DNA of 52,881 nt, from positions 1 through 52,881 of the IMG/VR virus record IMGVR_UViG_3300020446_000014; one strand, given 5' to 3'. Source of the stretch: a virus. The notes beneath the pieces are model-generated. The model did not search any database and was not told the DNA's origin. It was given only the letters and a program-made list of their open reading frames with translations. The number at the start of each line of letters is the position of its first letter. Within the stretch, counting starts at the first letter, position 1. Positions 7,755 to 37,466 of this stretch are shown here, one piece after another. The position numbers and the translations under genes were made by a program.

Positions 7755-9686
7755 ATGCCAGAAAAATATGAATTGTTCTTAGATAAGAATAAAAAAGTAA
7801 AACTTGCCGCGAATGACCAAGGTGATTTTTTTGCAGAAGCAAACGGCAATAGAATTAAACTAGGGGAACAAGGCCTACAAACAATTAATAAAACAACAGG
7901 AGCTCCAGAAAGTGTTGGAGGCGCTCCAGACCCTAATCAAATAATACGAACTATTACTGGAGTTGAACAAAACGCATTTGGTGAAGATTCAGGTAGAACA
8001 ACATTTACTCATACCTCTTTACCTGGAGAAACTTTAATCGGATGGTATGCTCAAGCAAATAGTGGTAATTCACCAAGATTATTTCTTACAATAAACCCAG
8101 CTCTTAATAACTCCGGTACTCTTTCAGCTCCCGATGGAACTATAGTTTATGGAGGTAATAATGGTCCTTTCAAAATATCACTAAAAATAAATGGTAATGT
8201 TTATGGCCCAATGCGTATGAATTTGAATAATGCTTCTTGGTACAACGCTTCTCAAATAGCTTTTTCAGTACCTGCTCATGATCAAATTGTAATACAGTAC
8301 GCTCACCAAGATGTTTCAAATTTTTCTGCTATGGAAGCTGATTTATTAGCTGTTGCAAATACTACAGAATTAGCAGGTGCAGGACCAAATGATGCTTTTT
8401 CTAATGGATTTAGTCAAAGACAAGGAGGTATATATGGTCTTCCTTTATCTGCTGATATACAACTATATATAGTAGAAGACATAGATGTTACAACACCAAT
8501 TAAATTTAGTGAAACAACTAATTTTATTAAAAAGTTATCAATTGTAACAGATAATGAAGCTGAACAATTATTTAAAACAACAGATGATTTTAGTACTAAA
8601 ACACCATATTCTTCAGGAGATCAAAGATGGAATCATCAAGCAATGGCTTTAGATAATGTGTTACAAGTTAGTGGTGTAAAAGCAGGTGGTCTTTACAAAG
8701 TTCAGAGTTGGGGTGCTAATTTTAATAATGTTAATGAGATATTTACAAATAATAATACTCATGAGTTTCTAGGTATTGAAATAGAATTTGATAGATACAC
8801 AGATGAAAGCACGTATGGAATCACATATGTAGATCTTTTAATGGGTATGGAAGGTTTTTTAAATGCTAATCAATCCGGTAAAAAACATTTAATATTTTAT
8901 TCTAAAAATCATTCTCAGTATAATGGATCTGGCCCTGGTGAATATTTTATGTATACATTATATGGACAAGATAATGCACCTAACACTGGATCACAAAATT
9001 CACAAGGATTAGCTTATAGTGTTGATCCTAATGGAAGCGGAGGTTATGGTGTTGAATATCCTATGGAAACTTATTATCCTGGAAGAGGACATAGACTTAG
9101 GTTAGAAATTAATGGGAATGGCTATATGTATGGTTATCCTCTTGATAGAGGAGTTGACAAAAATCCAGGTTATGGTAGATTTGGACAATATGGTATTCCC
9201 GGAAATATAGTTAATATTGATTTAAGAGCACAAATTACAGGAAAAATGGGAGATCAGGATGCTAATGCTAATCCTTATATGTATAATGATTATTCAACTG
9301 GTAATCATATAAATATTAAAGTTACTCCTGGCACAAAATATTTTATAACAGATGGAGCTTGGCCTTCAAGTTCAGCTTTTCCTCCTGGCCAAGTAATAGG
9401 TGTAATTCTTGATTGCGCGTATCTAAAACAAGGTGATGAATTTGGTTTTGCTTTTGATCATTTAGGTAACGGGACAAATTTATGGCCGGGTCAAACAAAT
9501 TATAATGTTAATATAGTATTTGCTTTTGGTAATAATGGTTACCAAATGTGGCAGGGATATAGACCCAATTTCGGAGGTTCTGCAGATTTTAGAATGACTA
9601 TTTCTGAAACATCAGGAATAGTTGTATGGAATCAATTAAATGGAGGTACTTATTCTACTGCAACAATGAATACAGCATTAATATAA
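7755..9686 (+). CDS. Tail fibre / receptor-binding-type structural protein (643 aa)
   Basis: A Gly/Asn/Tyr-rich 643-residue protein. The N-terminus (MPEKYELFLDKNKKVKLAAND) has the short beta-repeat style of phage fibre anchor domains, and the next gene opens similarly, suggesting a shared attachment module. The middle and C-terminus are beta-rich with many aromatic-glycine turns (GNGYMYGYPLDRGV, FGFAFDHLGNG), typical of carbohydrate-binding fibre tips. No enzymatic motif is evident. Location between two SDW-type proteins supports a distal tail role. Expected to act on the virion surface in host recognition; the ligand is unknown. Confidence 0.7.
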   Translation: MPEKYELFLDKNKKVKLAANDQGDFFAEANGNRIKLGEQGLQTINKTTGAPESVGGAPDPNQIIRTITGVEQNAFGEDSGRTTFTHTSLPGETLIGWYAQANSGNSPRLFLTINPALNNSGTLSAPDGTIVYGGNNGPFKISLKINGNVYGPMRMNLNNASWYNASQIAFSVPAHDQIVIQYAHQDVSNFSAMEADLLAVANTTELAGAGPNDAFSNGFSQRQGGIYGLPLSADIQLYIVEDIDVTTPIKFSETTNFIKKLSIVTDNEAEQLFKTTDDFSTKTPYSSGDQRWNHQAMALDNVLQVSGVKAGGLYKVQSWGANFNNVNEIFTNNNTHEFLGIEIEFDRYTDESTYGITYVDLLMGMEGFLNANQSGKKHLIFYSKNHSQYNGSGPGEYFMYTLYGQDNAPNTGSQNSQGLAYSVDPNGSGGYGVEYPMETYYPGRGHRLRLEINGNGYMYGYPLDRGVDKNPGYGRFGQYGIPGNIVNIDLRAQITGKMGDQDANANPYMYNDYSTGNHINIKVTPGTKYFITDGAWPSSSAFPPGQVIGVILDCAYLKQGDEFGFAFDHLGNGTNLWPGQTNYNVNIVFAFGNNGYQMWQGYRPNFGGSADFRMTISETSGIVVWNQLNGGTYSTATMNTALI

Positions 9687-20979: not shown

Positions 20980-21723
20980 TTATAGAAAATCAACTACTTG
21001 CGCGGGATCAACGCTGTCAATTAATTTATTTATTGCATCCCTTTTTATTTGTGATATTCTCACATATGACGCAGAGCCTTTTATATTTAATTTATCTGCT
21101 ATTTCTTTTGCGGACATTTTTCCACAATCTAGGCCATAACTCATTCTTAATACATCATATTCTTTTATAGTAAGATGAGACTCCATTATAGATAATAAAT
21201 ATTTATTCATTATATCTATATTATACTCTTTTGAATTATCTGGTATTTCATAAAAAGTATTATTATCTTGATCTGTTTCATCAATAGAATAAAATACACT
21301 ATTGAAAAACATTTGTACTGTTTTTTTATCTGTTTCAGAGTTCTTACGTATATCATTTAATTTATGCTCAGGTATACGTATGTTACCCCTATTAATATCA
21401 ATAGCTCTTCTTATAGCACCTTTTATTCTTTTAGATAAGAAACTATTTAAAGTTCTTTCTGGTTCAGTTGAATCTGTTATTTGATTCCAATCTATTTTAT
21501 CTACTGCTGCTATCAAACCTATTGTTCCTTCTTGTATTAAATCATTTATTGTCATCACTCCAGATGCTTGTTGTGATGTTGAAAATTTTCTTGCTATTGT
21601 TTCAACTAAACTTATATGTGATATAATTAAATCTTGTCTGCTGTCTCCTGTGTCAGGTATATTTCCATAAGATGCAATGTCATGCTTAAATCTAACATAA
21701 TTTGCAATATTATATTTCTTCAT
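20980..21723 (-). CDS. Phage-encoded sigma-70 family RNA polymerase sigma factor
   Basis: 247 residues. Region 2 is recognisable: LVETIARKFST, NDLIQEGTIGLIAAVDKIDW, then FLSKRIKGAIRRAID in the position of the -10-recognition helix. Region 4 is near the C-terminus (LTIKEYDVLRMSYGL, SAKEIADKLN, SYVRISQIKRDAINKL), a helix-turn-helix for -35 contact. Region 1.1 is absent and region 3 reduced. The start overlaps the stop of the upstream HTH gene by fourteen bases, so the two are coupled. It would redirect host RNA polymerase to a set of phage promoters, probably middle or late ones. Which promoters cannot be read from sequence alone. Confidence 0.88.
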   Translation of the reverse strand: MKKYNIANYVRFKHDIASYGNIPDTGDSRQDLIISHISLVETIARKFSTSQQASGVMTINDLIQEGTIGLIAAVDKIDWNQITDSTEPERTLNSFLSKRIKGAIRRAIDINRGNIRIPEHKLNDIRKNSETDKKTVQMFFNSVFYSIDETDQDNNTFYEIPDNSKEYNIDIMNKYLLSIMESHLTIKEYDVLRMSYGLDCGKMSAKEIADKLNIKGSASYVRISQIKRDAINKLIDSVDPAQVVDFL

Positions 21724-22327
21724 TTAATAACGCCTTTTCTTTTTTTATTTCAGCGGTTATATTTCTATATATTGTTCTTGTTGAAACATCTAATACATTT
21801 GCTATTTTACTTATTGTTATCCTATTATTGTTTTCATGTATTCCTAACATTGCTTCATAAATATCTGGTGGCTCGGCTTTTTTTCTTTTACCTATTATAC
21901 TACCAACTATTTTTAATTTTTCTATTGATGTTAATCCAGAACCTTCTTTAAAAATAATTTTACGCATTTTATTTTTTGGAGGTGCTTCTAAGTCTTGTTC
22001 AAAGACTTCATCAACTAAATTTTTAATACTTATATTATTTAGTTTTATAGTAACAAATCCATTGTCCTTATCTGCAAGATAGTGCGTTAATTCCGAAAAA
22101 TCATCATATGTCATATGTTTATTTAAATACCATAATACTAATAAATGCCATTTAAATGATTTATAAGACGTTATCATAGCTTTAGATCTAAATAATTCAT
22201 AGCACTCGTATGTACCATTTTCATAAAAGTTACCCCAACTAAAAATTTCAGAAGGGGTATCAGTTATAGGTCCGCGTCGATATATGATGCGTCTTCGATG
22301 TAGATATTCGAGATTTCTATGTGACAT
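21710..22327 (-). CDS. Putative helix-turn-helix regulator coupled to the sigma factor
   Basis: 205 residues. The C-terminal segment (NNNRITISKIANVLDVSTRT, IYRNITAEIKKEK) is a good helix-turn-helix. The N-terminal 100 residues contain an aromatic helical part (SYKSFKWHLLVLWYLNKH) of no recognised family. The gene ends within the sigma-factor start. It may regulate early-to-late switching or act with the sigma factor; this is inferred from the motif and coupling only. Confidence 0.7.
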   Translation of the reverse strand: MSHRNLEYLHRRRIIYRRGPITDTPSEIFSWGNFYENGTYECYELFRSKAMITSYKSFKWHLLVLWYLNKHMTYDDFSELTHYLADKDNGFVTIKLNNISIKNLVDEVFEQDLEAPPKNKMRKIIFKEGSGLTSIEKLKIVGSIIGKRKKAEPPDIYEAMLGIHENNNRITISKIANVLDVSTRTIYRNITAEIKKEKALLNEEI

Positions 22328-23503: not shown

Positions 23504-23702
23504 AATGTTTTGATTTTTGATATTTAATTAATTTCATTCTTATTCTATTTTTGTCCCAGTATTCAATTGTTTTATCCTGTAATAACCTATGCTTAGTATA
23601 GTGCCGAGGATCACTAAAATCGTATCCAACACGATAACCTTCTTCATACATTGTTTTAACAATTGTATATACTTCTTTAGGATCTAATACTCTAACTCCC
23701 AT
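23496..23702 (-). CDS. Small hypothetical protein (68 aa)
   Basis: 68 residues with a basic C-terminus (DKNRIRMKLIKYQKSKHYD) and a tyrosine-rich middle (YTIVKTMYEEGYRVGYDF). Overlaps the DnaA-like gene stop by eleven bases. Unknown function. Confidence 0.55.
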   Translation of the reverse strand: MGVRVLDPKEVYTIVKTMYEEGYRVGYDFSDPRHYTKHRLLQDKTIEYWDKNRIRMKLIKYQKSKHYD

Positions 23703-24090
23703 TTCTTAATAATTGATTTAGTTTTTGTTCTAATATATTTATGCGCTCCATAACATCTTTAAAACTAGGTGGAGGTTGAGGAGGTACATAGTGTTCATCT
23801 AAATCACTATATATTTTATTATATACAGTGTTCATATAGCTATCATATTTAGCTTCAGTATCAAACTTTTTTAAACCATTAAGTACAGTTGCGTGATCTC
23901 TCTTTACAGCTCTACCAATAGCAGCTAAGCTTGAATAACTACAAAACTTACGTGCTAGTTTAAAATATATAAATCTAGCTTGCGATAATTCACGTGTACG
24001 TTTTTTAGTTTTTAGGTTAAATAGATTTAATTCATCTTCAACCATTTTAAGTATATCTGTAGGTCTTGCGACTCTTGTTTTTGTTTTCAT
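23692..24090 (-). CDS. Stand-alone DnaA domain IV-like DNA-binding protein
   Basis: 132 residues from MKTKTRVARPTDIL. Residues about 34-75 reproduce the DnaA C-terminal helix-turn-helix: ELSQARFIYFKLARKF, SLAAIGRAVKRDHATVLNGL. R64-D65-H66-A67-T68-V69 corresponds to the RDHTTV signature that contacts DnaA boxes. No AAA+ part is present. A C-terminal coiled coil (SFKDVMERINILEQKLNQLL) suggests dimerisation. A start at 24105 is possible but falls inside the conserved promoter-like motif, so 24090 is preferred. It may bind phage or host DnaA-box-like sites. Confidence 0.78.
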   Translation of the reverse strand: MKTKTRVARPTDILKMVEDELNLFNLKTKKRTRELSQARFIYFKLARKFCSYSSLAAIGRAVKRDHATVLNGLKKFDTEAKYDSYMNTVYNKIYSDLDEHYVPPQPPPSFKDVMERINILEQKLNQLLRNGS

Positions 24091-24093
24091 ATT

Positions 24094-24128
24094 TATATTA
24101 TCCATTTATATTCGTGTTTACCTTGTAA
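24094..24128 (-). promoter_or_regulatory. Early-gene motif copy 6 (before DnaA-like gene)
   Basis: Minus-strand TTACA...TAAACACGA, eight variable bases, GGATAATATA. Same ungapped spacing as the five other copies. The stop codon of the upstream 67-aa gene lies within it, and the DnaA-like start is three bases after it, so a transcript from here would be nearly leaderless or start translation further in. Confidence 0.65.
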
Positions 24129-24321: not shown

Positions 24322-24473
24322 TTCTTTTTAATTATAGTTAAACCTTTTTTTCCAAAAGTATTTTTATATCCAAATTCATAGCCATCAGCTAATTCATATT
24401 TGATATTTTTTGCTGGAGGTATATTAGCACGACCTCCCATATATTTATCTATGAGGTATTGTTCTATATTCAT
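24318..24473 (-). CDS. Small hypothetical protein (51 aa)
   Basis: ATG at 24473 (TAATG overlap with the upstream gene), stop in an ATGA overlap with the next. Product: MNIEQYLIDKYMGGRANIPP, later YELADGYEFGYKNTFGKKG. Unknown function; supported by precise coupling on both sides. Confidence 0.6.
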   Translation of the reverse strand: MNIEQYLIDKYMGGRANIPPAKNIKYELADGYEFGYKNTFGKKGLTIIKKK

Positions 24474-24733
24474 TATGATAATTGTTTTGCTTTATAAACT
24501 GTATATGGTTCAAGGGATTTAATTGGCATCCTATATTTAGATTCATCAATAAGTTTAGCCATTCTAATCCATACTCTTAAGTCTCTAATGTCACCCATAA
24601 TTCTTTTATAATTTAATTCAGGCCACATACCTTTGTGTCTTTCTTTAAACCCTTCTCGTATATTCAAACGGTAGTTAGCTATTTTTGATATGAGCATTGA
24701 TTCAATGCGATCGTCTATATATGTGTTATCCAT
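24473..24733 (-). CDS. Hypothetical early protein (86 aa), first gene after the tRNA
   Basis: 86 residues, basic, helical (DRIESMLISKIANYRLNIRE, then LNYKRIMGDIRDLRVWIRM). It begins 21 bases downstream of the tRNA 3' end in the same direction. No family recognised. Confidence 0.6.
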   Translation of the reverse strand: MDNTYIDDRIESMLISKIANYRLNIREGFKERHKGMWPELNYKRIMGDIRDLRVWIRMAKLIDESKYRMPIKSLEPYTVYKAKQLS

Positions 24734-24753
24734 TTTATTTAATTTAAAATTAG

Positions 24754-24826
24754 TTGCGCGGGCAGGATTCGAACCTGCGACCTCAGGGTTATGAGCCCTG
24801 CGAGCTGGCCACTGCTCTACCGCGCT
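24754..24826 (-). tRNA. tRNA-Met (CAT), initiator type
   Basis: 73-nt cloverleaf: 7-bp acceptor with an unpaired A1/A72, D stem GAGC/GCTC, anticodon stem CAGGG/CCCTG with loop CTCATAA, 5-nt variable loop, T stem GCAGG/CCTGC with TTCGAAT. Initiator hallmarks: no 1-72 pair, three consecutive G-C pairs at 29-31/39-41, and A11-T24 in the D stem. The discriminator is A and CTA follows, so CCA is not encoded and must be added by the host enzyme. Confidence 0.93.
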
Positions 24827-24833
24827 AAAAGTT

Positions 24834-25106
24834 AGGGAATTGTTTAGTTCACTGTGGGCTCGCTTCTGAACGAAGTTACATCGCCTCCCCTAAACTTTTC
24901 CCTATATAATAACAGACGAGGTAGGTTTATTTCCACAGAGCCTACATTGTCATCACTTTATGCAACCCTCACCTTTGCTTTTCGTTTACTCTCCCATGCT
25001 AGCCAAGAGGTACGCCGGTTTTTTTGGGTTACTGTGGCCCGTCTGTATAAGATGCCCGATAGCTATATTAACTGAGGGAAATTCTAAAAAACCTCAACTA
25101 CCGGGC
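24834..25106 (-). ncRNA. Candidate structured non-coding RNA with pseudoknot, next to the tRNA
   Basis: A roughly 270-nt stretch without a convincing gene, clearly richer in G+C than its surroundings. Complementary segments: 25098-25106/25054-25062 (9 bp, one G-U), inside it 25092-25096/25073-25077; nested 24912-24918/25040-25046, 24933-24938/25032-25037 and 24964-24968/25026-25030, almost continuous on the 25026-25046 strand; hairpin 24921-24925/24941-24945 whose loop holds 24933-24938, making a pseudoknot; and 24834-24839/24898-24903 with 24842-24847/24890-24895 enclosing a CTTC/GAAG hairpin. Minus strand is chosen from the neighbours. It lacks recognisable RNase P, tmRNA, 6S or group I signatures. 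Confidence 0.7.
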
Positions 25107-25137: not shown

Positions 25138-25293
25138 TTATAATTGTTGATTAAGTATATAATTAATCACTTGCTTAGGTGTGCCCGTCATTTTATTTAT
25201 TTTGCCATGTTCGTCGTGAAATTCTAATTGATAGAAAGCTGGACGGTGTATAGCAAAAGGTGTATCATATTTGTTTCCTGCCATATTATTCAT
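25138..25293 (-). CDS. Small hypothetical protein (51 aa)
   Basis: From MNNMAGNKYDTPFAIHRPAF; ends PKQVINYILNQQL. A longer in-frame start at 25329 would intrude further into the upstream gene, so 25293 (or 25284) is preferred. Core YQLEFHDEHGKINKMTG is beta-like. It is the last gene before the structured RNA region. Unknown function. Confidence 0.5.
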   Translation of the reverse strand: MNNMAGNKYDTPFAIHRPAFYQLEFHDEHGKINKMTGTPKQVINYILNQQL

Positions 25294-25510
25294 CTTTAGG
25301 TATATAATCATCTTCAGGTCGGTATTCAAATTTATCTCGCACGCGACCTTTTTGACTTGGTCTAGGTATACTATAACCTACGATCGGATTTATGTTGTGG
25401 TTCCAAAAGTCCCACGGCATTTCCTTTGTTTCAATTTTATCATCTAATATTCCCATAGGGTCATTATCAAATATTTCTTGTAATATTTTATCTTTTTTAT
25501 TCTTCGTCAT
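25286..25510 (-). CDS. Small hypothetical protein (74 aa)
   Basis: From MTKNKKDKILQEIFDND; contains a W-rich stretch (EMPWDFWNHNINPIVGYSIP) and an acidic end (RPEDDYIPKDE). The start lies within the 3' end of the upstream gene. Unknown function. Confidence 0.52.
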   Translation of the reverse strand: MTKNKKDKILQEIFDNDPMGILDDKIETKEMPWDFWNHNINPIVGYSIPRPSQKGRVRDKFEYRPEDDYIPKDE

Positions 25511-30496: not shown

Positions 30497-33213
30497 TGCC
30501 AATAATTAATAACTACGACATAGACACAAATATAGATGCTACCGATTTTTTTATTGGTATATCGGGAGAAGACGGTAGAACTAGAAAGTTTAGTGCTACT
30601 ACTGTTTCCAACTTTGTGCAATTACAAGCAAATAGTGTAACAGACACAAATTTTTATTTAGAAAATGTTTCTGCAAACTCATCAACAGGAGACGTTACGT
30701 TTACAGTAAATGGATCTTCTGATTTAGTATTATCATTAGGAACAGCCGCATTTTCACAAGTAGATGATTTTGCTACAGCAACTCACGTGCATGCATTTTC
30801 CGATATTGCTACACCAAATATAGTAACATCAGAATATTTAAATGTTGGTGGCAACGGAACATTAGGACAGGTATTAACATCAGATGGAACTGGAGGGTTT
30901 ACATGGGAAAATGTTTCTGCAGTAGGTGATACTAATTTTTATTTAAACGGTATAACACAATCTGGAAATTCTTTAACATTTAGTGTTTTAGGTGGAACAG
31001 ATCATATTGTTGATTTTGGCGAAGGAGCATTTCTGTCATTACAACAAATAGTAGATAATGTACAATTAAATATAAATGTAAACGATATTGTAAATGCATT
31101 AGGCGGTTTAGCAGGTTTAAATTCTGTTGGTACTGCTAATATAGATGCTGCTTCTATTACCGCATCAAAAATTCAAGACGGTATAATAACAGAACAAAAA
31201 TTAAACGTATCAAATACACCACAAAACGGATACGTATTAACTTCAGATGGCGCTTCTGGATTTACATGGGTTTTAAATTCTTCATCAAATTACTTTGTAA
31301 ATAATATAGTAAGAAACGGTAACGCTTTAACATTTGAATTAGCAGGCGGTGCTGCTCCATCAACTTTTGCTTCATACACTTTAGGTGAAGCTGCTTATAG
31401 AGATGTAGGTACTAATTTAGGACAAGTAGCCGACGGGGCACATACCCACGATATTTCAACAATACTTAACGCAGGTGTTTTAGCAACACTAGATACAGTA
31501 AATACAGCACAAATAGATAATAGTGCTGTAACAATAGATAAACTATCTGCCTCAGGTACTGACGGACAATTTTTAACAATAACTTCAGGATCTTTAGCAT
31601 GGACAACAATTTCTACGGCAAATATTGATTTCTTATCATTACCAAACACACCGTCTTCTTTTGCAAGTCAAGCAGGTAAGGTAGTAAAAGTTAATTCCGG
31701 AGAAACAGCTTTAGAGTTTGTAGACTTTACAATAGATTTAAATTCTATAACAACAGCAAACGTTGGTGCACCTGGTAAAGTATTAAGTGTTGATTCAAAT
31801 GGAAATCTTACTTGGATTAATGTAACAGCAGGTGGTACTATAACAATATACCCAGATGATTTAAATGGTATAACAACCTACGGAACATCTGGCCAAACTA
31901 TTCAAACAAATGGAAACGGCACATTTAGTTATCATACTCCTTTTGACTATCAGTTTAGTTCTTTACTAAATACACCAACAACAGTATCAGGTTATGGAAT
32001 AACTGATGCAATGACAACAGCACATGACGCTAATGTTATTACTTCAGCAGATATTTCAAACTGGAATACAGCATACGGATGGGGTGATCATTCGCTTGTG
32101 GGATATTTAACAGCAGAAACTGATCCTATATTTACTGCATCAGCGGCTGGAGGCATAACTGCTACACAAGTTACAAATTGGGATACAGCTTACAGCTGGG
32201 GTGATCATTCTTTAGCTGGTTATATAACGGCTGAATCAGACCCTGTATTTAGTGTTTCGCCAGCAGGTACAATAACAAATACAAATATTGCAAATTGGAA
32301 CACTGCTTATGGTTGGGGCGATCACAGTACTCAAGGCTATATAAATAGTGAAACAACTACAACACTTGCTTTAGCTAATAATACACTTACATATACCGAT
32401 GAAACAGGTACTGCCACAAATATTGATTTATCATTATATTTAGATGACACAAATTTAGCTAGACTTACAAGTGGTACATTAAATGGATCTACAGGTATTG
32501 CAACATTTACAAGAGATGATAATTCTACATTTAATGTAGATTTTAGTGCTTTTTTAAGCGGCGGCGGTTTAACAGATACGTATGTTAATGCTGCTTCATT
32601 TAATACAAATACAGGTGTATTAACATTAACTAGAAATAATTCAGCAACAGTTGATGTAGATCTTGATAACAGATATTTACAAACATATAGTGAATCATCA
32701 ACATTAGATGATGTAGTTGGAAGAAATAATGCAACAACAACTACAGCGGTAATTCCTTTTTATTATGCAAATCAAGCAGCATTTCCAAGTGCAGGAACAT
32801 ATCATGGTGCTATAGCACATTCACACATTGATGGTACAATGTATTATGCTCATAGTAGTGCTTGGCATGAATTAGCAAATGCAGATGCAAGTAATATATC
32901 TAATGCTATAGGATATGCTCAAACTGCAAATGAATTTAAAACCTCAACTACATTTACTACAGATGTAGATTTTTCAACAGCTGCAGTATTTACACAAACA
33001 CTTTCCGGAAACTTAACAATGACATTTTCAAACGCTGGAATTGGTATGACCAAAATACTTTTAATTACGGGAGGTAATGGAGGTTATACTTTAACATTCC
33101 CAGCGGGCGCAACAAAATTAGAAGGTACTTATGATGATACCGTAGTAAACTTTATACAGGTTACTTGTACGGGATCAGGAGAATACTATTATACAATTTC
33201 ACAACCAGCATAA
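30496..33213 (+). CDS. Large repeat-containing tail fibre protein (905 aa)
   Basis: 905 residues of Thr/Asn/Gly-rich beta sequence. Repeats are obvious: LTSDGTGGFTWEN and LTSDGASGFTWVL in the first half, and three tandem 39-residue units with WNTAYGWGDHS in the middle (about residues 520-620). Near the end AAFPSAGTYHGAIAHSHID resembles segments found in phage fibre tips. No enzymatic motif seen. Likely a trimeric fibre or lateral appendage; the head of the protein (MPIINNYDIDTNID) may be the anchor. Followed one base later by another fibre-type gene. Confidence 0.75.
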   Translation: MPIINNYDIDTNIDATDFFIGISGEDGRTRKFSATTVSNFVQLQANSVTDTNFYLENVSANSSTGDVTFTVNGSSDLVLSLGTAAFSQVDDFATATHVHAFSDIATPNIVTSEYLNVGGNGTLGQVLTSDGTGGFTWENVSAVGDTNFYLNGITQSGNSLTFSVLGGTDHIVDFGEGAFLSLQQIVDNVQLNINVNDIVNALGGLAGLNSVGTANIDAASITASKIQDGIITEQKLNVSNTPQNGYVLTSDGASGFTWVLNSSSNYFVNNIVRNGNALTFELAGGAAPSTFASYTLGEAAYRDVGTNLGQVADGAHTHDISTILNAGVLATLDTVNTAQIDNSAVTIDKLSASGTDGQFLTITSGSLAWTTISTANIDFLSLPNTPSSFASQAGKVVKVNSGETALEFVDFTIDLNSITTANVGAPGKVLSVDSNGNLTWINVTAGGTITIYPDDLNGITTYGTSGQTIQTNGNGTFSYHTPFDYQFSSLLNTPTTVSGYGITDAMTTAHDANVITSADISNWNTAYGWGDHSLVGYLTAETDPIFTASAAGGITATQVTNWDTAYSWGDHSLAGYITAESDPVFSVSPAGTITNTNIANWNTAYGWGDHSTQGYINSETTTTLALANNTLTYTDETGTATNIDLSLYLDDTNLARLTSGTLNGSTGIATFTRDDNSTFNVDFSAFLSGGGLTDTYVNAASFNTNTGVLTLTRNNSATVDVDLDNRYLQTYSESSTLDDVVGRNNATTTTAVIPFYYANQAAFPSAGTYHGAIAHSHIDGTMYYAHSSAWHELANADASNISNAIGYAQTANEFKTSTTFTTDVDFSTAAVFTQTLSGNLTMTFSNAGIGMTKILLITGGNGGYTLTFPAGATKLEGTYDDTVVNFIQVTCTGSGEYYYTISQPA
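32062..32346 (+). repeat. Three tandem 117-bp in-frame repeats in the fibre gene
   Basis: Units begin at 32062, 32179 and 32296, exactly 117 bases apart. Each starts WNTAY.WGDHS or WDTAYSWGDHS and the first two continue with GY(L/I)TAE(T/S)DP. The third diverges after about fifteen residues. Confidence 0.85.
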
Positions 33214-35915: not shown

Positions 35916-37466
35916 ATGGAATTTAATCATCCGAGTGAGATTGTTAAAAATTTATCTTTTAGCAATAACGCTCAAGACAAAATTATGTCAGGAGTTGACA
36001 AATTAGCTAAAGCTGTTGCGTCTACAATGGGAGCATCTGGTAAATGCGTTATATATGAAGATGCCTTAGGTAAACCAATAGTTACAAAAGACGGAGTGAC
36101 TGTTGCAAATAGCGTTATCCTTATGGATCCCGTCGAGAATATCGGCGCAACCCTCATTAAAGAGGCAGCTCAAAAAACAGTTAAGGAAGCGGGCGACGGT
36201 ACTACTACAGCTACCGTGCTCGCACACTCCATTTTAAAAGAATACTGGAAAATAGAAGATCCAGATATAAGAAGAATAAAAGAAGATATAAATAAAGCAT
36301 CAAAAGAAATATGTGCTTATTTAGAAAAATCTTCTAAAAAAGTTACAGGCAAAATGCTAGACCATGTTGCTACTATATCAACAAATAATGATGCGACATT
36401 AGGTACTATAATAGCAGATGCTTATAATAAAGTTGGTAAAGACGGTGTTGTACTTATGGAAGAATCTGAAACAGATGAAACATATGTTGATACAGTTGAT
36501 GGTGTACAATTTGATTCAGGTTTAAAATCTCAGCATTTAATTACCGATAAAGAAAAAAATAAAGTAATACTTGAAGAGCCTTTAGTGTTGATAGTAGATT
36601 CAGAAATTGAATCAATAAGAAAAATACAAAATGTTTTAGAGTATGCTATAAAAAACAATAAACCTATATTAATAATAGGTAATGTTTCTCAACAAGTATT
36701 GTCTGCGCTTATTATGAATAAAGTAAAAGGCAATATAAAAGTAAATATAATTGATCCACCTGGTTTTTCTTCTATAAGAAAAGAGATGCTAGAAGATCTA
36801 GCAATAATAACTGGAGCTAAAGTTATTAATGAAGAATTAGGCGATGATTTAGATTTAATAAATGAAACGTGTTTAGGTATTGCATCTAAAGTTGTAACTG
36901 ATGAAAATAATACTGTTATAGCTACTAATGTAGATACTGAAGATATAAAAGAAAGAATTGCGACAATAGACAAGCAAATAAAGAATGAAAAAAATCCTTA
37001 TTCTTTAAAAAAGCTAGAACAACGTAAAGCAATGCTTTCAGGTTCTGTAGGTATTATATACGTAGGTGCTGATTCTAAAATAGAATTAAAAGAAAAAAAA
37101 GATAGAGTTGAAGACGCTATTTATGCTGTTAAAGCGGCTTTAAAAGAAGGTATTGTTTCTGGAGCTGGAATTGCACTGCACAATGCATCTAATGAAATAC
37201 AAGACGGAACAAATGGTAGAGACTTATTGTTAAATGCAATAAAATCACCATATAAAACAATTCTTGAAAACGCTGGAATATCTTATGATAATCCCACAAA
37301 AAAAGGATGGGGTAAAAATGTTGTAAATAGTGAAAGCGTTAACTTAATTAAAGAAGGAATTATTGATCCTGTATTGGTAACAAAAACTGCATTAAAAAAT
37401 GCTGTATCAGTTGCCACAACAATAATGTCAGCTGATTGTGTAATATCTAATGTAAGAGAACAATGA
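35916..37466 (+). CDS. groEL: Phage-encoded GroEL chaperonin
   Basis: 516 residues aligning across the family: VTKDGVTVANSV (D of the KDG(V/I)T motif), EAGDGTTTATVLAHSI (D94, equivalent to the ATP-hydrolysis Asp87 region of E. coli), an apical domain (FDSGLKSQHLITDKE; DPPGFSSIRKEMLEDLAIIT), and DRVEDAIYAVKAALKEGI with the second key Asp. It is shorter than the roughly 548-residue bacterial protein and ends at ISNVREQ without the GGM-repeat tail. ATP-driven folding chamber in the cytoplasm. The next gene, overlapping by four bases, encodes a GroES, so order is EL-ES, opposite to most bacteria. Confidence 0.95.
   Translation: MEFNHPSEIVKNLSFSNNAQDKIMSGVDKLAKAVASTMGASGKCVIYEDALGKPIVTKDGVTVANSVILMDPVENIGATLIKEAAQKTVKEAGDGTTTATVLAHSILKEYWKIEDPDIRRIKEDINKASKEICAYLEKSSKKVTGKMLDHVATISTNNDATLGTIIADAYNKVGKDGVVLMEESETDETYVDTVDGVQFDSGLKSQHLITDKEKNKVILEEPLVLIVDSEIESIRKIQNVLEYAIKNNKPILIIGNVSQQVLSALIMNKVKGNIKVNIIDPPGFSSIRKEMLEDLAIITGAKVINEELGDDLDLINETCLGIASKVVTDENNTVIATNVDTEDIKERIATIDKQIKNEKNPYSLKKLEQRKAMLSGSVGIIYVGADSKIELKEKKDRVEDAIYAVKAALKEGIVSGAGIALHNASNEIQDGTNGRDLLLNAIKSPYKTILENAGISYDNPTKKGWGKNVVNSESVNLIKEGIIDPVLVTKTALKNAVSVATTIMSADCVISNVREQ

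Follow-up and report, generated by a model that had tools for sequence, protein, structure and literature searches.

The gene-free island and its surroundings

The DNA analysed, referred to as the window, comprises the 52,881 bases of a phage record. Its terminase is most similar to that of a spring-water podovirus (MW202828, 63%), followed by those of Flavobacterium phages (45%), and matches Cellulophaga phages as well; the primase-helicase is closest to that of Cellulophaga phage phi10:1 (43%). On these matches the host is likely flavobacterial. A GroEL-like chaperonin ORF was recognised from its sequence elsewhere in the window (Table 1), and GroEL is also present in Elemovirus relatives.

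All plausible genes between positions 22000 and 28000 reside on the minus strand, as does a tRNA-Met with initiator features read from the sequence (GGG/CCC anticodon stem, A1-A72 mismatch). This confirms the initiator-type tRNA that the first-pass annotation had placed against a structured region. The island lies just upstream of the tRNA in the reading direction of the genes. Because flanking genes and tRNA are on the minus strand, the island RNA is most likely read on the same strand, which is taken as the sense strand. A coding role was rejected: inside the island a single minus-strand ORF reaches the threshold of 30 amino acids, with exactly that length, the plus-strand ORFs (73 and 50 amino acids) oppose the genes, and module I, described below, is entirely missing in the close relative L002. 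Seven flanking ORFs were searched, and a Pfam or PHROG match was obtained solely for a small protein resembling the DnaA C-terminal helix-turn-helix domain, encoded near the island. Defence or toxin families were not matched near the island, apart from one weak WYL-type match, and neither a promoter nor a terminator stands out at the island.

The region had been described as structured RNA of no known class, and this holds: the Rfam gathering score is reached on the island by the tRNA only, and extending the search to E values of 10 adds chance matches only. Neither an RF00023 match nor an ARAGORN tmRNA was found in the window. A likeness to RNase P RNA motifs noticed by eye (CCACAGUAAC, GUAAACG) was discarded, no Rfam match being obtained even at E 10. 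Type III toxin-antitoxin RNAs (ToxI-like) and their phage mimics are small pseudoknotted RNAs able to work as protein-binding antitoxins or decoys; the island differs from them because tandem repeats are lacking between 24500 and 25500, and none of the flanking ORFs matches a toxin family. Antisense pairing of the island with the phage's own genome was also dismissed, as exact matches extend to 14 nt at most (at 32938), against maxima of mostly 11-13 in shuffled sequences.

Table 1. Features of the window and of related loci. Bare positions refer to the window, L numbers to relatives.
Feature	Position or locus	Strand	Basis or remark
Sigma-factor-like gene	20980-21723		Pfam Sigma70_r2; PHROG sigma factor
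DnaA-C-like protein	23692-24105	minus	Pfam PF08299, E 2.7e-12
ORF bordering the hotspot	24473-24733		similar ORF in nearest relatives
tRNA-Met(CAU), initiator-type	24753-24826	minus	ARAGORN; Rfam tRNA, 65 bits
Module I: outer stem UAGGGAA/UUCCCUA, inner stem GUUUAG/CUAAAC, apical core I	24833-24904	minus	z -2.45
Core I with inner stem	24842-24895	minus	covarying stem, seven other loci
Shell J: P1, P2, hairpin round P2 strand; core A in arm	24912-25046	minus	helices read directly
P1 of J, ACAGACG with CGTCTGT	24912-24918/25040-25046		base for base
Pseudoknot hairpin of J, GTAGG with CCTAC	24921-24925/24941-24945		base for base; loop contains CCACAG
P2 of J, CCACAG with CTGTGG	24933-24938/25032-25037		base for base
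Innermost nested helix, AACCC with GGGTT	24964-24968/25026-25030		base for base
Core A in the J arm: P1, P2, P3, A-rich linkers	24964-25030	minus	model R1 match
Module H: hairpin GCCCGGUAG..CUAUCGGGC, inner GAGG..CCUC hairpin, U-rich loop	25054-25106	minus	z -4.5
ORF bordering the hotspot	25138-25329		similar ORF in nearest relatives
GroEL-like chaperonin ORF	35916-37466	plus	recognised from its sequence
Module C	L012, L013, L025, L028, L029, L053, L056, L069, L072, L073, L074, L075		sister pseudoknotted RNA
tRNA-like structures, examples	L003:3388-3466, L010:3972-4061, L032:5838-5934, L035:378-483, L056:6823-6927, L085, L092

Structure and covariation of the modules

Read from sequence, this gene-free island of a marine phage is a set of three small predicted RNA folds, modules H, J (with core A) and I, and not one RNA class. 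The first-pass annotation had drawn a single pseudoknotted RNA; its structured, non-coding nature stands, and the four helices that it listed are all present, but relatives in which parts of the island are missing (L002, L005) resolve it into three separable modules. Mononucleotide shuffling of the region yields a comparable trio of perfect nested helices separated by small gaps 38 times in 2000 (1.9%). By minimum free energy the island as a whole is ordinary (z -0.78 on the minus and -0.88 on the plus strand), and so is the J/A unit taken by itself (z -0.24); H and I are unusually stable (0/200 and 4/200 shuffles, respectively).

Module H is also found in L002, L004 and L005, in the last with a different 3' part. 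The UGAGG/CCUCA pairing of the window is replaced by CGAGG/CCUCG in L005, and a C-A mismatch is present in L004. The sole additional contig retrieved by scanning with the module H pattern (L123) is a chance match.

Shell J is known only from the window and two close relatives, L002 and L004. Its elements follow the order P1, P2, arm, S3, P2', S3', P1', which is also that of module C, and the pseudoknot arises since the loop of the S3 hairpin holds the 3' strand of P2. Three helix changes distinguish L004 from the window, and pairing is kept in all (G-U to A-U beside P1, C-G to U-G in P2, C-G to U-G in P1 of core A). The helices of the pseudoknot already proposed for this DNA are present as drawn and the fold is plausible, the single pairing-keeping change in P2 of L004, the sole direct test offered by three close relatives, being suggestive rather than proof.

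Core A occupies the arm of J. As P1 came out misplaced when the nine A copies were aligned together with MAFFT, the covariance model R1 was built from six short copies, leaving the window out. In the six-copy alignment 97.9% of 96 cells pair, compared with 26-44% in slid controls, and 6 of the 16 model pairs are changed on both sides. The best match of R1 in the window is core A itself (22 bits, E 0.0006), the next match scoring 11 bits; the window copy hence falls within a family defined from six relatives by a model built without it. Extending the alignment by the window, L002 and L004 brings the share of paired cells to 91% and the number of pairs changed on both sides to seven; these three copies keep P1 but have lost part of P2, and show an alteration in one pair of P3. 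Core A is, on comparative grounds, a predicted structured RNA domain supported by covariation. The short form is found with H directly before the tRNA in L005, and along with other modules in L003, L006, L007, L011 and L018.

Core I, a 42-nt sequence (GGGAGGCGAUGUAACUUCGUUCAGRAGYGAGCCCACAGUGAA), matches at least seven other phage contigs, where it resides on unrelated, self-complementary stems. It is found near letter for letter in the window, L004, L025, L073, L086, L088, L087 and L094, and these eight loci score 73-85 bits on the core I model, the window being one of the model's five sequences. Five of the six pairs of the stem below are changed on both sides, and all aligned sequences pair (UUUAG/CUAAA, CUAA/UUAG, GUUG/CAAU and AUUG/CAAU are among the versions found), so that the family consists of a conserved core on a covarying stem. 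Homologues with compensatory changes, which the first-pass annotation had named as the support to look for, therefore exist both for core A and for the stem of core I. A candidate UGU/ACA pseudoknot within core I gains one supporting change in L073, and one breaking change in L094.

The scaffolds of core I differ. It is carried by a plain hairpin in the window and L004, by an arm of module C in L025 and L073, by a CAGTAGG..CCTACTG shell in L086 and L088, and by tRNA-like structures resembling tmRNA in L087 and L094. The CAGTAGG..CCTACTG shell is empty in L103. Module I as a whole is identical in L004 (72/72 nt), and cleanly absent in L002. Its outer flanks in the window match the ends of the L013 module C shell, which also adjoins a tRNA-Met, and the copy in the window could be a shell with its interior exchanged. 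The exact core I pattern has no match in 84,980 species genomes, a distant BLAST among 50,697 phage records yielded no genuine match, and the core was not found in the examined part of an Elemovirus.

A hotspot of variable modules in related phages

Through the sigma-factor-like gene 64 related loci were gathered. In the nearest relatives the spot between the two bordering ORFs (Table 1) holds differing sets of structured modules: H and J/A without I in L002, all three modules in L004, H and a short A without either the J shell or I in L005. The identity of the island and tRNA region to L004 is 97-100%, whereas core genes are 83-87% identical, a difference that suggests either transfer of the island as a cassette or strong constraint on it. 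In the scans made, presence was confined to viral contigs, and in 50 contigs neither core A nor core I exceeds one copy per contig. At the level of sequence, comparison of the loci demonstrates that the island is modular, that core A and the core I stem covary, and that shells occur both empty and occupied.

Other modules recur at the hotspot, as module B (CCGAAGGATTGCTGACGAGC..) in L003, L006, L007, L009, L010, L011 and L018, and module E (ATGATGGTCCTCTACC..) in L008, L009, L011, L015 and L018; neither B nor E reaches the gathering score of any Rfam family in the loci scanned. Module C (AAAGA..UAUAAACAG..CAUUCC..) is a sister pseudoknotted RNA, the arm of which holds different inserts, core I included. 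Its pseudoknot strand covaries across relatives (GAUGA/UCAUC, GGUGA/UCACC, GACAA/UUGUC, GACAG/CUGUC).

Clean insertions and losses (L002 versus the window, L103 versus L088), and a module content differing between close relatives, are what would be left by selfish small RNA or DNA elements inserting into the loops of structured RNAs and tolerated there. Yet the near-invariant core and the compensated stems suggest selection on the RNA, and the low copy number of cores A and I is unlike that of an amplifying element. This origin is regarded as quite improbable.

A 20-nt apical core (GTGAGGGATCGTTATGAACT) was found in 29 viral contig stretches, on many unrelated stems (e.g. L031:7351, L032:5870, L042:6926, L092); the exact pattern is absent in 84,980 species genomes. 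Mimicry of rRNA, or antisense pairing to it, was tried and rejected, as short matches to E. coli rRNA, such as one of 13 nt with one mismatch between this core and 23S rRNA, do not clearly exceed what so many comparisons would yield (12 shuffles). Both the 20-nt core and core I stand in differing gene contexts across contigs, and no fixed downstream gene follows them, as it would a riboswitch or a leader. This bears on the idea that the folds are cis-acting elements of an early polycistronic transcript, which stabilise, punctuate or attenuate the mRNA with no action in trans. In its favour, the modules lie in gene direction in a dense, operon-like arm beside a tRNA, and in L108 the closing stem of the module carrying the 20-nt core is right by a start codon. 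Yet the same core precedes different genes or sits in tRNA-like structures, and the content of the island varies while the flanking genes are constant. A purely cis-acting role appears rather unlikely.

The relatives contain 43 tRNA or tRNA-like candidates, versus none in a reversed control, and 18 of the 43 carry a G3:U70 pair, a feature of alanine identity present also in tmRNA. The tRNA-like structures keep acceptor and T arms, the anticodon region being replaced. One of them, L060:5483-5565, is a mini-tmRNA. It scores 59 bits on the Rfam tmRNA model, above the gathering value of 47, and the stretch that in the model comprises some 304 nt of tag and pseudoknot sequence measures only about 13 nt; similar sequences are found in L093, L106 and L112. 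The L094 form hosting core I scores 25 bits on the same model, below gathering. In L073, at about 2240-2380, a candidate of 139 nt is a tRNA gene whose anticodon region is interrupted by a long insertion. Another reading makes the RNAs modulators of translation, which would target the ribosome or the initiation step in concert with the phage initiator tRNA and, where relatives have them, tmRNA-like scaffolds. The initiator-type tRNA adjoining the island, the presence of core I in tmRNA-like structures and the frequency of G3:U70 all fit, but, the true tRNA apart, tRNA-like scaffolds are lacking in the window, and core matches to rRNA are near chance. This role is judged unlikely.

A tRNA-Met adjoins gene-free sequence in Elemovirus as well. 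In Flavobacterium phage elemoA (L121) this sequence, at about 8660-8780 on the minus strand, is rich in hairpins, and is preceded by a promoter-like motif (TATCTTTGC). As a cultured relative, L121 is a possible laboratory system for such a hotspot.

Possible roles of the island RNAs

The explanation tentatively preferred, with a confidence somewhat short of even, is that the island is a composite of autonomous RNA units with exchangeable cores A and I, released by RNase P, acting in trans as decoy or inhibitor RNAs, and renewed by cassette exchange. The RNAs would be transcribed leftwards along with the neighbouring genes and the initiator-type tRNA, and transcription from the promoter of an upstream gene is assumed because none stands out at the island. 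RNase P would cut the transcript at the tRNA (candidate site 24826/24827), setting the 3' end of the upstream RNA. The folds would then work in trans as small stable RNAs binding a host protein or a factor associated with the ribosome. Most likely they would serve as decoys or inhibitors against the host's defences or its control of translation, defence being a guess, since no defence or toxin family is matched nearby. The repertoire would turn over by cassette exchange.

Trans-acting RNAs binding host factors are suggested by the combination of near-invariant cores and variable hotspot content, and the clean gain and loss of modules at one site in L002, the window and L005 supports the same reading. 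Cores that hardly vary while the self-pairing stems beneath them are replaced resemble recognition domains needing nothing but a stable base. High core identity could in part reflect recent cassette exchange, not selection. A broader version of this trans-acting model, which we consider doubtful, envisages a combinatorial RNA toolkit, in which cores binding proteins or ribosomes are swapped among pseudoknot shells, hairpins and tagless mini-tmRNA scaffolds, the RNA equivalent of islands of anti-defence genes. Within it the window would hold, with the same doubt, three toolkit parts beside an initiator tRNA.

Phage-encoded tmRNAs are known as whole genes including the tag-encoding part (PMC9004378). 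The tRNA-like structures hosting core I in L087 and L094 resemble the tRNA-like domain of tmRNA (ssrA, RF00023). In contrast, the modules of the window do not match it, and the tRNA-like forms of relatives lack the tag and pseudoknot part of about 300 nt, and feature exchangeable cores instead. Structured-RNA candidates have been obtained from metagenome comparisons (PMC2864571), and these share with the present elements conserved structure, covariation and an unassigned function; they differ in having one fixed architecture, whereas here interchangeable cores sit on different shells, and no Rfam family matches. Descriptions of exchangeable cores were not found in the searched corpus, which omits most subscription journals and preprints. 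As far as the searched literature and Rfam go, exchangeable RNA cores set on scaffolds of several kinds are previously undescribed.

If this is true, RNA domains would be exchanged naturally between scaffolds, as protein domains are, with tRNA-like scaffolds among those carrying guests. A set of RNA-target interactions would await identification in phages of marine bacteria, and the use of banks of structured RNAs by phages, whether against defence or to direct translation, could be put to the test.
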